DNA of 64,000 nt from positions 1,758,001-1,822,000 of the forward strand of contig NZ_CP011393.1 in NCBI RefSeq assembly GCF_001644665.1, in the 5' to 3' direction. How positions within the stretch are numbered: the first letter of the stretch is position 1; each line of letters starts with the position of its first letter. This stretch comes from Fervidobacterium pennivorans. GTDB taxonomy: Bacteria > Thermotogota > Thermotogae > Thermotogales > Fervidobacteriaceae. Positions 27,269 through 56,583 of the stretch are shown here, in pieces. The notes beneath the pieces were generated by a model. The model worked only from the letters and a program-made list of their open reading frames with translations, did not search any database and was not told the DNA's origin. The translations under genes and the position numbers were made by a program.

Positions 27269-28216
27269 ATGAACAACTCAACGCTCTCTTGTCCAAAATG
27301 CGGTTCCACCAGCTTATACAAAAACGGTCATGACAAATACGGTAACCAACAATTCCTTTGCAAACTCTGCCATCATTCTTTCAAACTCTCCCATTCTCAC
27401 AAACGCAAAAACTTCTCTTTCCCTTATCCCAAATGCCCTTCTTGTGGTAAATCTATGGAAATTTACAAAGTCCGTCGCTCTTTCGTCGTCTTCCGTTGTA
27501 GAACTTGTCGTACCAAAGATAGAGTACCTTTTAACCTCCCCGAACCAGTCACCCTTATTCCTGAGAAATTTAAATATTTCCGTTTTCCTATCTACTTCAT
27601 CTTAAAAGCTTTCGTTTTGTATATGAAACACAATATGTCTTATCGCTCTCTTGCTCATTCTCTTAATATCAAAGTATCTCATGTCACCATATATAAATGG
27701 GTTATTAAATTGTGTACTTTATTCTCTGTACTTTTCCCAACATTTACCATCGAAAATGTTTTCTCAGTTCATGCTGATGAAACTGTTCTTGTGTTCAAAG
27801 AACAAAAGTACTATGTTTGGCTATTAGTTGATCACGAAACTAACTTAATTCTTTGTTGGCATGTCTCAAAGTACCGTGATATGGGACAAGTCAAAGTATT
27901 GCTCGAGAAGTTCTTTGGTAATTCAAAACCTAGAAACATTGAACTTATTACTGATGGACTTGGTGCATATGAAAGTGCAGTAAAGCTGTTGTTCAGAAAT
28001 ATCAATCACGTAGTGGTACCGCTCGGTAAAAACATGTGTGAATCTAAGTTTTCATTACTGAAAGACTTTTTCCGACTCAAGCGAGGGCTGAAGAATACGA
28101 AGAACTTAGCGAAATATATTCAAGGATTTTGTGTAGTGAAGAATCTTTGGAAAACGCACAATGGCAATATCAATCGCATTCTTTCACAATTACACTCTTT
28201 CATCACTACAAGTTAA
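27269..28216 (+). CDS. Transposase, double zinc ribbon plus IS6-like DDE domain (copy 1)
   Basis: 315 residues. The true start is ATG 27269, with AAAGGAGGT (27252-27260) 8 nt upstream; the longer open frame from 27188 begins in the promoter. Two N-terminal zinc ribbons: CPKC/CKLC (residues 8-34) and CPSC/CRTC (56-80). A helix-turn-helix-like region follows (MSYRSLAHSLNIKVSHVTIY, 123-142). The DDE catalytic triad is D170 (VHADETVLVF), D229 (ELITDGLGAYESAV) and E258 (CESKFSLLKDFFRLKRG). Near-identical proteins occur at 33062 and 42920. It looks intact, so it may be active. Confidence 0.93.
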   Translation: MNNSTLSCPKCGSTSLYKNGHDKYGNQQFLCKLCHHSFKLSHSHKRKNFSFPYPKCPSCGKSMEIYKVRRSFVVFRCRTCRTKDRVPFNLPEPVTLIPEKFKYFRFPIYFILKAFVLYMKHNMSYRSLAHSLNIKVSHVTIYKWVIKLCTLFSVLFPTFTIENVFSVHADETVLVFKEQKYYVWLLVDHETNLILCWHVSKYRDMGQVKVLLEKFFGNSKPRNIELITDGLGAYESAVKLLFRNINHVVVPLGKNMCESKFSLLKDFFRLKRGLKNTKNLAKYIQGFCVVKNLWKTHNGNINRILSQLHSFITTS

Positions 28217-32960: not shown

Positions 32961-34019
32961 GATAATGTTAACTAAAAGTATTGAAACTTTCCAAAAACCG
33001 CATTATCCTTATAAAGAGGGGACACCCCCCAACCAACTCTCGACAAAGGAGGTATCCCGATATGAACAACTCAACGCTCTCTTGTCCAAAATGCGGTTCC
33101 ACCAGCTTATACAAAAACGGTCATGACAAATACGGTAACCAACAATTCCTTTGCAAACTCTGCCATCATTTTTTCAAACTCTCCCATTCTCACAAACGCA
33201 AAAACTTCTCTTTCCCTTATCCCAAATGCACTTCTTGTGGTAAATCTATGCAAATTTACAAAGTCCGTCGCTCTTTCGTTGTCTTCCGTTGTAGAGCTTG
33301 TCGTACCAAAGATAGAGTACCTTTTAACCTCCCCGAACCAGTCACCCTTATTCCTGAGAAATTTAAATATTTCCGCTTCCCTATCTTTTTCGTCTTAAAG
33401 GCTTTTGTTTTGTATATGAAACACAATATGTCTTATCGCTCTCTTGCTCATTCTCTTAATATCAAAGTATCTCATGTCACCATATACAAATGGGTTATTA
33501 AATTGTGTACTTTATTCTCTGTACTTTTCCCAACATTTACCATCGAAAATGTTTTCTCAGTTCATGCTGATGAAACTGTTCTTGTGTTCAAAGAACAAAA
33601 GTACTATGTTTGGCTATTAGTTGATCACGAAACTAACTTAATTCTTTGTTGGCATGTCTCAAAGTATCGTGATATGGGACAAGTCAAAGTATTGCTCGAG
33701 AAGTTCTTTGGTAATTCAAAACCTAAAAACATTGAACTTATTACTGATGGACTTGGTGCATATGAAAGTGCAGTAAAGCTGTTGTTCAGAAATATCAATC
33801 ACGTAGTGGTACCGCTCGGTAAAAACAATCAATGTGAATCTAAGTTTTCATTGTTGAAAGACTTTTTCCGACTCAAGCGAGGGCTGAAGAATACGAAGAA
33901 CTTAGCGAAATATATTCAAGGATTTTGTGTAGTGAAGAATCTTTGGAAAACGCACAATGGCAATATCAATCGCATTCTTTCACAATTACACTCTTTCATC
34001 ACTACAAGTTAACACTATC
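32961..34019 (+). mobile_element. Insertion sequence copy 2 (1059 bp)
   Basis: Same element as copy 1, with the same terminal repeats (GATAATG... and ...CACTATC). The 8-bp target duplication is CTTAAAAA (32953-32960 and 34020-34027). It lies between the DUF721 gene and gyrB, 2 nt from the gyrB SD. It is 3 nt longer than copy 1 because of one extra codon before the catalytic Glu. Its left end shares CCTTATAAAG with copy 1, against CCTTTAAAG in copies 3 and 4. Confidence 0.95.
33062..34012 (+). CDS. Transposase, double zinc ribbon plus IS6-like DDE domain (copy 2)
   Basis: 316 residues, near-identical to copy 1. Both zinc ribbons are intact (CPKC/CKLC, CTSC/CRAC). The catalytic segment reads KNNQCESKFSLLKDF, keeping NN before the catalytic Glu as in other IS6-type enzymes, where copies 1 and 3 read KNMCESK. 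This may therefore be the ancestral form. ATG 33062 has AAAGGAGGT upstream. Appears intact. Confidence 0.93.
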   Translation: MNNSTLSCPKCGSTSLYKNGHDKYGNQQFLCKLCHHFFKLSHSHKRKNFSFPYPKCTSCGKSMQIYKVRRSFVVFRCRACRTKDRVPFNLPEPVTLIPEKFKYFRFPIFFVLKAFVLYMKHNMSYRSLAHSLNIKVSHVTIYKWVIKLCTLFSVLFPTFTIENVFSVHADETVLVFKEQKYYVWLLVDHETNLILCWHVSKYRDMGQVKVLLEKFFGNSKPKNIELITDGLGAYESAVKLLFRNINHVVVPLGKNNQCESKFSLLKDFFRLKRGLKNTKNLAKYIQGFCVVKNLWKTHNGNINRILSQLHSFITTS

Positions 34020-42819: not shown

Positions 42820-43868
42820 GATAATGTTAACTAAAAGTATTGAAACTTTCCAAAAACCGCATTATCCTTTAAAGAGGGGACACCCCCCAACCATCTCTTG
42901 AAAAAGGAGGTATCCCGGTATGAACAACTCAACGCTCTCTTGTCCTAAATGCGGTTCTACCAGCTTGTACAAAAACGGTCATGACAAATACGGTAACCAA
43001 CAATTCCTTTGCAAACTCTGCCATCATTCTTTCAAACTTTCCCATTCTCACAAACGCAAAAACTTCTCTTTCCCTTATCCCAAATGCACTTCTTGTGGTA
43101 AATCTATGCAAATTTACAAAGTCCGTCGCTCTTTCGTTGTCTTCCGTTGTAGAACCCGTCATACCAAAGATAGAGTACCTTTTAACCTCCCCGAACCAGT
43201 CACTTTTATTCCTGAGAAATTTAAATATTTCCGTTTTCCTATCTACTTCATCTTAAAAGCTTTCGTTTTGTATATGAAACACAATATGTCTTATCGCTCT
43301 CTTGCTCATTCTCTTAATATCAAAGTATCTCATGTCACCATATACAAATGGGTTATTAAATTGTGTACTTTATTCTCTGTACTTTTTCCAACATTTACCA
43401 TCGAAAATGTTTTCTCAGTTCATGCTGATGAAACTGTTCTTGTGTTCAAAGAACAAAAGTACTATGTTTGGCTATTAGTTGATCACGAAACTAACTTAAT
43501 TCTTTGTTGGCATGTCTCAAAGTATCGTGATATGGGACAAGTCAAAGTGTTGCTCGAGAAGTTCTTTGGTAATTCAAAACCTAAAAACATTGAACTTATT
43601 ACTGATGGACTTGGTGCATATGAAAGTGCAGTAAAGCTGTTGTTTAGAAATATCAATCACGTAGTAGTACCGCTCGGTAAAAACATGTGTGAATCTAAGT
43701 TTTCATTACTGAAAGACTTTTTCCGACTCAAGCGAGGGCTGAAGAATACGAAGAATTTAGCGAAATATATTCAAGGATTTTGTGTAGTGAAGAATCTTTG
43801 GAAAATGCACAATGGTAATCTCATTCTTTCACAACTGCATTCTTTCATCACTACAAGTTAACACTATC
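42820..43868 (+). mobile_element. Insertion sequence copy 3 (1049 bp)
   Basis: Same element family. Target duplication TGAGTTCT (42812-42819 and 43869-43876). Inserted between gcvT and gcvPA, 1 nt from the gcvPA SD. It shares the left-end form CCTTTAAAG and CCATCTCTTG with copy 4. The right end of the transposase gene is a few codons shorter than in copies 1 and 2. Confidence 0.95.
42920..43861 (+). CDS. Transposase (copy 3), second zinc ribbon altered
   Basis: 313 residues from ATG 42920 (AAAGGAGGT upstream). The catalytic DDE residues are all present. In the second zinc ribbon the last Cys is lost: FRCRTRHTKD replaces FRCRTCRTKD, although the neighbouring His might substitute. Near the C-terminus HNGNLILSQLHS replaces HNGNINRILSQLHS, a 2-residue loss. 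It may be less active than copies 1 and 2. Confidence 0.9.
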   Translation: MNNSTLSCPKCGSTSLYKNGHDKYGNQQFLCKLCHHSFKLSHSHKRKNFSFPYPKCTSCGKSMQIYKVRRSFVVFRCRTRHTKDRVPFNLPEPVTFIPEKFKYFRFPIYFILKAFVLYMKHNMSYRSLAHSLNIKVSHVTIYKWVIKLCTLFSVLFPTFTIENVFSVHADETVLVFKEQKYYVWLLVDHETNLILCWHVSKYRDMGQVKVLLEKFFGNSKPKNIELITDGLGAYESAVKLLFRNINHVVVPLGKNMCESKFSLLKDFFRLKRGLKNTKNLAKYIQGFCVVKNLWKMHNGNLILSQLHSFITTS

Positions 43869-53324: not shown

Positions 53325-55889
53325 TTAATTTTTAACAAATAACGTCTTAAAAGAATTTTTGAGAGGTCTTACATTCTGTATCACTTCACCATTTGGTAAA
53401 ACGATTCTTTCATATCCATTTCCGACTGTTGTCTTGGATATCTCACTTTTCAAAGGTTCCTCATCAAGTACATAATCTATTTTTAGCTTTCCTAATTCGT
53501 ATGTGTTTGGATATATTAGTGTATAATCACCGTCTGGAATATGAGCCTTAAAAACACTCTTGCCATCTGTTCCAAAACCTGCCTTTACTGCTACATGTAT
53601 ACCGAATGGTAGTTCCAAGGAATATGCAAGGGAGTACGGGGCTAACAGATTTTCAACCTTTGTTGGAGGAGTCAACGCTATCTTCAAAATATCGTACTCC
53701 ATCTGGGTCCGTTCCCAATCATCTTCAACCTTTACCTCTTCCTTTTGTATCACCTTTCCGAAAAGTTTGCTACCGATTTTAACAACCTCTGGGTTAATAC
53801 CACTTTTTAAAGAGCGTAACTTTTGGATAGCTTTTCTTCTGCTTCCAAATATATCATCGAATGTTCCTATCTTTATTAGTGCTTCTATTGTGGAAAGTGA
53901 AAATCCAGATTTCTCTACAAACTCTTCAAATGAATCGAATGTTTGATTTTGCAGGATTTCTGCCTTTTCTGGAGAAATTCCAGGGACAACATAGAGTGGC
54001 ATTATATACGTCTTTTCTTCTGCCTCTCTGCCACTTTGAACAGGTGAAGACCCAATATACACCTTAGGTGGATGTATCGTGAAACCGAGCGCCTGTAAAT
54101 TGTAAACAGCTGTAGGTAGAATCGTTGTGTCGTACTTTAGATAGACGTCGTAAAAGAGCTTTGGATAATTGACTTTGAAATATGCCATAAGGTATGTAAT
54201 GTGCGCATATGCTACTGCGTGGGACTTGTTAAATGCGTACTCTCCTAAACTAAGTATAATTCTTGCAAGTTCTTTACCATCGTTGCCGTAAATTTCTACA
54301 AGTTTCTTCGTGAGTATTTCATATATTTCTTTGACCTTGGTTACATCCTTTTTTGCTATCGCCTTTCTTAGTTCGTCTGCCTGAACACTTGTCAACCCTG
54401 CTAAGTCCATAGCAATTTTCATTACCTGCTCTTGGTAAATTGGGAAGCCGTAAGTGTCATTTAATTGCGGGACTTTGAATTTTAGCTCTTTTTTGAATTT
54501 AAGTTCCTTTATTTCCCTGGTTACACCAGCTTTAATAGGTCCTGGTCTGTTGAGTGAAATTGCTAAAACGAGTTCTTCAAACTTTCTGGGTTTTAAGTCT
54601 CGAACAACTTGCTTGGCTATAAAACTGTCAAGCTGGAAAACGTTATCCGTAAAACCGACAGATATATACTTGTACGTCTTTTTACCTTCGTTGGTTCTCT
54701 CAAATTCGGGGAGCATTTCGTATAAATCATTCAAATCACTATTCTTAGAAATAACTGAAAAATTCCATAATTGTTTTGCTTCTTCTTTTATGTGCTTTAG
54801 GATGGTCAGCGTCTTTAAACCAAGGATATCGAACTTAACATATCCAAGCTTTTCTAAATCCTTCATATCCCACTCTACCGTTTCCGTGCCGGGAGTGAGT
54901 GGAAGGTCCATTGGGGTCGTTGAGATTATAACGCCCGCTGCATGTGTTGTTTTTTGAACGGGGATATCGCACAGGTAATCTGATAAAGCTCCATACTCAT
55001 TTAATATCTTTTCTGGCATTGCTGCGAACGCACTTATGTTGAAGACATTTGCAAATTTCTCTCTTAGGATACTTATCAGTCTTTGGCGTTGCATATCTTC
55101 AACGTCTAAATCAATATCTGGATAATCTCTCCTGCCCTCGTTCAAAAACCTTTCAAATAACAACCCGAATTTCATAGGGTTTATCTTCGTAATTCCAAGT
55201 CTGTAAGCGAGTAAACTACCAACAGCACTTCCCCTTCCGGGTCCCACCTCTATGTCATTTTCCTTTGCTAAATCCACTATGCGTTTAATTGTGTAAAAAT
55301 ACCCCTCAAATCCAAATTTCTTGACTAATTCAATTTCGTGTCTGAGTCTGTTGTAATATTCTTTCTCATTTTCCAAAAGTTCGAGGAACACATCTTTTGA
55401 GTCATTATAATACAGCGTTTGAGTACTTTTCAAATCGTATAAAAATTCGCCTTTGACGTTCAGTTCAAAACCTTTGAAATCCGCTACCGAAGAGACTTTT
55501 TCAGGAGCTTTTCCAAAATATTCTACCAATGCCTTAAAGTAATCTTCTTGACCAGGCAGATAGTAAATCGGTGGCTGAGAGATGGACTCGAAGTTGTGCT
55601 TGAGAAGTTCCACAAGCTTTGGAGTCTTTCCATAGTTATTGTATATGCTAAACATCTTTTTCAAATCGTTTGTGTCTTTGGCAATGTAAGTCTCCGTACC
55701 AACTCTAAGTCCTACGATACCTTTCAATTTGTAAGTCTTAGCCGTTTCCAAAAATTTAACGACACCACAGAATGTAGTATCAGAAAGCACTACCTGGTCA
55801 AACCCGTTTTCCAGGCACCATTTGAACAATTCTTCAAATTTTATCACGGAACCTTCAAAAGAATAAGGTGAAGCAACGCAAATAGTTAT
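53325..55889 (-). CDS. dnaE: DNA polymerase III alpha subunit DnaE (short form), apparent ATA start
   Basis: A short DnaE (854 aa from ATA 55889, 840 from GTG 55847), like the roughly 842-aa Thermotoga DnaE. The polymerase core is clear: GPGRGSAVGSLLAYRLGI, the catalytic PDIDLDVEDMQR, VKFDILGLKTLTIL (third Asp), SLNRPGPIKAG, YGFPIYQEQVM and NKSHAVAYAHITYLMAYFKVNYP. Codons upstream of GTG encode ITICVASPYSFEGS, aligning with the conserved HVHSEYSLLDG strand of the PHP domain. GAGGTGG (55897-55903) sits 7 nt before ATA. The PHP metal ligands are lost. T. maritima also has a PolC; none is seen here. Confidence 0.92.
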   Translation of the reverse strand: MTICVASPYSFEGSVIKFEELFKWCLENGFDQVVLSDTTFCGVVKFLETAKTYKLKGIVGLRVGTETYIAKDTNDLKKMFSIYNNYGKTPKLVELLKHNFESISQPPIYYLPGQEDYFKALVEYFGKAPEKVSSVADFKGFELNVKGEFLYDLKSTQTLYYNDSKDVFLELLENEKEYYNRLRHEIELVKKFGFEGYFYTIKRIVDLAKENDIEVGPGRGSAVGSLLAYRLGITKINPMKFGLLFERFLNEGRRDYPDIDLDVEDMQRQRLISILREKFANVFNISAFAAMPEKILNEYGALSDYLCDIPVQKTTHAAGVIISTTPMDLPLTPGTETVEWDMKDLEKLGYVKFDILGLKTLTILKHIKEEAKQLWNFSVISKNSDLNDLYEMLPEFERTNEGKKTYKYISVGFTDNVFQLDSFIAKQVVRDLKPRKFEELVLAISLNRPGPIKAGVTREIKELKFKKELKFKVPQLNDTYGFPIYQEQVMKIAMDLAGLTSVQADELRKAIAKKDVTKVKEIYEILTKKLVEIYGNDGKELARIILSLGEYAFNKSHAVAYAHITYLMAYFKVNYPKLFYDVYLKYDTTILPTAVYNLQALGFTIHPPKVYIGSSPVQSGREAEEKTYIMPLYVVPGISPEKAEILQNQTFDSFEEFVEKSGFSLSTIEALIKIGTFDDIFGSRRKAIQKLRSLKSGINPEVVKIGSKLFGKVIQKEEVKVEDDWERTQMEYDILKIALTPPTKVENLLAPYSLAYSLELPFGIHVAVKAGFGTDGKSVFKAHIPDGDYTLIYPNTYELGKLKIDYVLDEEPLKSEISKTTVGNGYERIVLPNGEVIQNVRPLKNSFKTLFVKN

Positions 55890-55903
55890 AAATCAACCAC
55901 CTC
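55887..55903 (-). promoter_or_regulatory. SD and candidate non-canonical start (ATA) of dnaE
   Basis: GAGGTGG (55897-55903) and ATA (55887-55889) at 7-nt spacing. The only in-frame alternatives before GTG 55847 are ATT (55883) and no ATG/GTG/TTG, and a TGA closes the frame 6 nt upstream. GTG 55847 has a weaker GAAGG 4 nt upstream. Confidence 0.5.
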
Positions 55904-55929: not shown

Positions 55930-56583
55930 TCACTGGTCAGATGCATTCAAAATTTCTTGTCTCAACTCTGGAAGCCTCGGATTTCTGAACACGCCGTATC
56001 CCATCACCAAAATATCAACGCCTGCTTTAACAAGTTCTACGGCGTTTTCATTTCCAACTCCTCCATCAACCGCAATTTTGAAGTTTAGTTCTCTTCCCTT
56101 TCTAATGTCATTAAGCCTTTTTATTTTGTCCAGCATTGTTGGAATGAACTTTTGCCCAGAAAAGCCTGGATTGACTGTCATCACCAATATACCATCCACG
56201 TATGGTAAAATTTCATCTAATGTGAACAACGGCGTTGCCGGATTGATAGCAACGAACGCTTCCACACCCAAAGACTTCATATACTCGACCGTTCTGTGGA
56301 GATGATAACATACCTCTTGATGGACAGTGATTCTTGTAGCTCCTCTTTCAACGAAACCTTTGATAAGTTCTGTTGGATTAGTAACCATAAGGTGTGCATC
56401 AATTGGCAAATTGGTGAATGTTCTAAGAGCCTCTATCATCGGAAATCCAAAAGTTAAATTCGGAACAAAGTGCCCATCCATAACGTCAAGATGTATTTCG
56501 TCTATCATCTCCTCCACTCTTTTAACCTCTTCACTTAGGTATGCCAAGTTGGCTGCAAGTATAGATGCGCTTACAATAGCCAT
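55930..56583 (-). CDS. rpe: Ribulose-phosphate 3-epimerase
   Basis: A 217-residue TIM-barrel epimerase that interconverts ribulose 5-phosphate and xylulose 5-phosphate. VSASILAANLAYLSEEV, IHLDVMDGHFVPNLTFG, DAHLMVTNP, MTVNPGFSGQKFI and AVDGGVGNENA carry the metal-binding His/Asp residues and the phosphate-binding C-terminus (VMGYGVFRN). SD GGAGGATAAA lies before the ATG. dnaE follows on the same strand. It diverges from phoH. Confidence 0.97.
   Translation of the reverse strand: MAIVSASILAANLAYLSEEVKRVEEMIDEIHLDVMDGHFVPNLTFGFPMIEALRTFTNLPIDAHLMVTNPTELIKGFVERGATRITVHQEVCYHLHRTVEYMKSLGVEAFVAINPATPLFTLDEILPYVDGILVMTVNPGFSGQKFIPTMLDKIKRLNDIRKGRELNFKIAVDGGVGNENAVELVKAGVDILVMGYGVFRNPRLPELRQEILNASDQ

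Follow-up and report, generated by a model that had tools for sequence, protein, structure and literature searches.

A candidate AUA start codon behind a strong Shine-Dalgarno sequence in dnaE of Fervidobacterium pennivorans, and AUH starts in related genomes

Non-canonical translation starts are already known from infC, pcnB, sigR and the ccpN gene of Staphylococcus aureus, and the combination of a weak start codon (AUA, AUC or AUU) with a strong ribosome-binding site is a known, seldom-seen route to a scarce protein. The infC gene, which encodes initiation factor IF3, starts at AUU, AUC or AUA and is autoregulated by IF3. In vitro, IF3 excludes weak third-base pairs and tolerates strong ones (PMC10158994). 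In S. aureus, AUA or AUU starts with an extended Shine-Dalgarno sequence gave about 10% of the AUG level in poor medium, and ccpN up to 30% of AUG in rich medium (PMC13009471). The GTC start of Streptomyces sigR is repressed by IF3 (PMC5472188).

The start of dnaE was analyzed in a window of 64,000 nucleotides from F. pennivorans (the features are collected in Table 1). The preliminary description had placed GAGGTGG 7 nt before an ATA codon, with no canonical codon in frame there and a TGA just upstream, and the sequence agrees on all three points. No in-frame ATG, GTG or TTG occurs between this TGA and GTG 55847, the closest TTG (55896-55894) lies in a different frame from dnaE, and no in-frame canonical codon able to start the conserved protein was found. 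The TGA excludes a dnaE start farther 5' unless it is read through. The 40-nt gap between the stop of the rpe-like gene (55930) and ATA contains GAGGTGG. No mRNA folding that would mask this Shine-Dalgarno sequence was detected, shuffled sequences folding equally well (z 0.14, -0.63 and 0.46).

Table 1. Features of the dnaE locus (positions in the window) and of two further genes with AUH starts (positions in the genome).
Feature	Position	Strand	Remarks
dnaE (DNA polymerase III alpha)	53325..55889	-	854 aa read from ATA; Pfam PHP, DNA_pol3_alpha, DNA_pol3_finger
Candidate start codon ATA	55887..55889	-	Best Shine-Dalgarno energy among in-frame codons, usual spacing; identical in G004
Shine-Dalgarno sequence GAGGTGG	55897..55903	-	Complementary to 16S 3' end ...GATCACCTCCTTTCT
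Spacer TTGATTT between GAGGTGG and ATA	55896-55890	-	7 nt
In-frame TGA	55893..55895	-	One codon (TTT) 5' of ATA
14 codons ITICVASPYSFEGS (ATA..TCC)	55848..55889	-	Start of PHP domain; end directly before GTG 55847
First canonical in-frame codon GTG	55845..55847	-	Weak Shine-Dalgarno; not kept as start in relatives
rpe-like gene upstream of dnaE	55930..56583	-	217 aa; stop 40 nt before ATA
mnmL/ytqA	G000:C1:657759-658682 (L252; L253-L269)	-	Strong Shine-Dalgarno, usually a stop codon just upstream
fliO	G000:C1:884157-884471 (L307; L308-L321, L334-L348)	-	

The 11 codons before the equivalent of GTG 55847 were compared in 28 pairs drawn from eight genomes of the genus; a ninth, G007, was left out because it holds only a partial gene. 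Codon positions 1, 2 and 3 differed 28, 29 and 172 times, respectively, with 141 synonymous and 50 nonsynonymous codon differences. In the 33 nt farther upstream, 21 of the 33 positions differed between the window and G002. The motif S-P-Y-S-F-x-G-S is kept throughout the order, where ATG, GTG or TTG stands about six codons before it, and the methionine of several genomes, including ATG-start relatives provisionally labelled Thermosipho-like, falls at the exact position of ATA here. The bias of change toward third positions and the order-wide motif with a start about six codons ahead indicate that the DnaE protein begins upstream of GTG 55847. The 14 codons before this GTG, earlier taken to encode the first strand of the PHP domain, are coding and conserved in the order.

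A start at GTG 55847, the first canonical codon and one with GAAGG directly before it, would yield a DnaE of 840 aa that lacks the first PHP strand and would make the upstream conservation a relic or a regulatory RNA. This is improbable, since the 11 codons ahead evolve as protein, the GAAGGT before the GTG corresponds to conserved Glu-Gly codons, its Shine-Dalgarno energy is just -4.2 kcal/mol, and the equivalent codon is GTA, GTT or ATT in relatives other than G004.

Shine-Dalgarno energies were calculated as pairing to the 3' end of the organism's own 16S rRNA, GATCACCTCCTTTCT, read from both rRNA copies. ATA 55889 reached -13.2 kcal/mol, in about the top third of genes, and lies 10 nt from GAGG. 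A spacer of 7-10 nt is found in 79% of the Shine-Dalgarno genes of this genome that carry GAGG, so that ATA, an AUH codon (AUA, AUC or AUU), stands at a usual distance from its strong Shine-Dalgarno sequence. The ATT two codons 3' of ATA shares the same Shine-Dalgarno sequence at 16 nt, a spacing seen in about 1% of these genes. The preliminary description had left the start at ATA or ATT. Of the two, ATA is preferred because its distance from GAGG fits the norm and because other genera have their ATG at this position; it is far better than ATT and is the likely start here. We conclude that dnaE very probably starts at the non-canonical AUA at 55889.

The codon with the best Shine-Dalgarno pairing was also AUA, AUC or AUU in most of the genus, namely in seven of the eight genomes, with TTG in the remaining one. 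The codons and energies (kcal/mol) were ATA -13.2 in the present genome (G000), ATA -13.2 in G004, ATC -13.2 in G002, ATA -10.4 in G001, ATC -10.5 in G005, ATT -15.8 in G006, ATA -13.0 in G003 and TTG -12.3 in G008. The preliminary description had left it to other genomes of the genus whether ATA is conserved or replaced by ATG: the ATA site is identical in the closest species, G004 (90% protein identity), and AUG is the dnaE start in none of the eight, though it is one third-base step to G away. Nor is the codon the isolated oddity that had been implied, as an AUH start, with the codon varying, is shared by most species of the genus, and similar starts recur in a few further genes. A sequencing or assembly error could conceal an ATG or TTG, and a single base change at ATA would indeed give a canonical start. 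Since the identical site is present in the complete genome of another species, G004, this is very unlikely, to the point of being negligible; further species are non-canonical too.

No canonical start was found near the dnaE N terminus in G001 (ATA) or G005 (ATC). In G006 (ATT) and G003 (ATA) an in-frame GTG occurs only within or adjoining the Shine-Dalgarno sequence. G002 reads GAGGTGGTTGATT-ATC, with one T fewer than G000 and G004, which places a TTG in frame two codons before ATC; this TTG is 3 nt from GAGG and pairs at -5.0 kcal/mol, against -13.2 for ATC. The extra T in G000 and G004 raises the prospect that the out-of-frame TTG 55896 initiates and a frameshift follows, the TTG being a relic of the in-frame codon of G002 shifted by one inserted T. 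Initiation of this kind is quite improbable: TTG 55896 is merely 3 nt from GAGG, as in about 0.7% of genes, no slippery run is evident near it, and the AUH codons of G001, G005, G003 and G006, which have no such TTG, would be left unexplained.

On the other hand, the TTG of G008 is well placed, the sister genus g2 has a GTG start for dnaE, and the rest of the family has ATG. In the DnaE tree G008 groups with G003, and g2 lies near G005 and G006, suggesting that canonical and AUH starts of dnaE have been swapped within the clade. The canonical starts of G008 and g2 count against an AUA start insofar as the trait is not indispensable, as do the in-frame TTG of G002 and the in-frame GTG in or beside the Shine-Dalgarno sequence of G006 and G003. 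In the Thermosipho-like genomes (L013-L024) the dnaE ATG seems to abut or overlap the stop of the rpe-like gene and has little Shine-Dalgarno sequence; in contrast, dnaE in the genus of the window is set apart, with its own strong Shine-Dalgarno sequence and a weak start codon.

The frequency of such starts was surveyed in 1,083 called genes, selected by codon usage, in 1.26 Mb of the genome. Genes were sought with an AUH or CUG codon, a good Shine-Dalgarno sequence and no canonical rival, and repeated hits from a multicopy element were removed by eye, as were those traceable to wrong frames or boundaries in gene calling. Of the 1,083 genes, 931 combined a canonical start with a well-paired Shine-Dalgarno sequence, and only a handful of real genes, dnaE among them, had AUH or CUG at the start position. 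This rarity indicates that the dnaE pattern is beyond chance. A multicopy element is seen in the window as near-identical open stretches on the minus strand at about 27316-27601, 33109-33394 and 42931-43252; its pattern, KVKRYSIFG[TM]T...ERATDFVN...EVFAFVRMG, has about a dozen copies in the 1.26 Mb.

The AUH set in the 1.26 Mb comprised dnaE, infC, mnmL/ytqA and fliO. The infC gene starts with AUU, as it does in E. coli, in each of the 19 family genomes that gave a match (loci L111-L129), so that AUH starts are evidently used here. In mnmL/ytqA (radical SAM, TIGR01212) ATT stands at the same position in 17 of the 17 family genomes keeping the N terminus; outside the family the codon is mostly ATG, GTG or TTG, with ATT in G080. 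The start of fliO (PF04347) is ATC, ATA or ATT in 15/15 family genomes, and among the other members of the order examined it is AUH in most, ATG in one and ambiguous in several. The conservation of the fliO and mnmL starts suggests that selection maintains such AUH starts and that genomes contain more of them than are counted. As a further AUH-start gene, an AI-2E-type transporter was discarded, its N terminus being unconserved and an ATG lying upstream in the nearest relative.

Apparent CUG starts were also observed. A DegV protein (G000:C1:717131-717961:+, L272) has CTG with a good Shine-Dalgarno sequence in three species and TTG in most other members of the genus, and a 186-aa protein (743601-744158:+, L292) has an apparent CTG start, also with a good Shine-Dalgarno sequence, in two species and TTG in most sister species. 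Genes named by eye as KsgA-like and LptF/G-like (866012:+ and 989682:-) have apparent CTG starts with good Shine-Dalgarno sequences.

We propose that the initiator fMet-tRNA would begin dnaE at AUA 55889, positioned by the strong Shine-Dalgarno sequence 10 nt from GAGG. The third base of AUA would pair weakly with the initiator anticodon CAU, a kind of pairing that IF3 selects against where this has been studied; initiation would be inefficient, and the resulting low synthesis of DnaE would probably be sensitive to IF3. Most of the genus would have retained an AUH start while codon identity and N-terminal length drifted. The parallels in infC, sigR and ccpN make it plausible that the start codon limits the DnaE level in an IF3-sensitive manner, a reading held tentatively, at a little under an even chance. 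The weak codon may instead be neutral drift allowed by the strong Shine-Dalgarno sequence, AUA being the start with no regulatory role. Such drift has an appreciable, though minority, probability: codon and position of the dnaE start vary between species, G008 and g2 have canonical starts, and CUG starts arose in a few genes, such as that of DegV; against it, AUG starts dnaE in none of the eight genomes of the genus though one step away, and fliO has AUA, AUC or AUU in each of the 15 family genomes and in the majority of the other order members examined. A wider proposal, that infC, dnaE, mnmL/ytqA and fliO form an IF3-responsive AUH regulon conserved in the order, is unlikely; if true, it would link the supply of a replication polymerase, tRNA modification and flagellum assembly to the level of an initiation factor.

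Thermotogae have PolC and DnaE3 (PMC3919608), and the label DnaE3 for the 854-aa protein is taken by phylum from that work. The genome holds a second, weak C-family match in a PolC-sized frame of 1,411 residues. We speculate that DnaE is a second polymerase beside PolC, whose scarcity could be tolerable.

Annotation limited to ATG, GTG and TTG would lose the polymerase's first 14 residues and with them the first PHP strand. A weak dnaE start across the genus makes limitation of the replication polymerase by its start codon directly testable. Genus-wide conservation of an AUH start in a DNA polymerase gene, or AUH starts in fliO or mnmL, were not found in the open-access papers searched, among which few subscription journals are covered.

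Among the known systems, infC resembles dnaE in combining an AUH start with a strong Shine-Dalgarno sequence, and infC of the same family starts with AUU. However, the product of dnaE is not the factor that discriminates between start codons, and no closed feedback loop is implied. The ccpN (AUA) and cvfC1 (AUU) genes of S. aureus share with dnaE an extended Shine-Dalgarno sequence and conservation in relatives; ribosome profiling and reporters located their starts (PMC13009471), whereas that of dnaE is predicted from sequence. In dnaE, unlike these two genes, the codon drifts among AUA, AUC and AUU. Streptomyces sigR likewise has a non-canonical start, an extensive ribosome-binding site and a limited protein level, but its codon is GTC rather than AUH, it encodes a sigma factor, and it was tested by genetics (PMC5472188). 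In E. coli pcnB, according to Binns and Masters (2002) as cited in PMC13009471, AUU keeps a nucleic-acid polymerase scarce; that enzyme is poly(A) polymerase, whereas dnaE encodes a replication polymerase.
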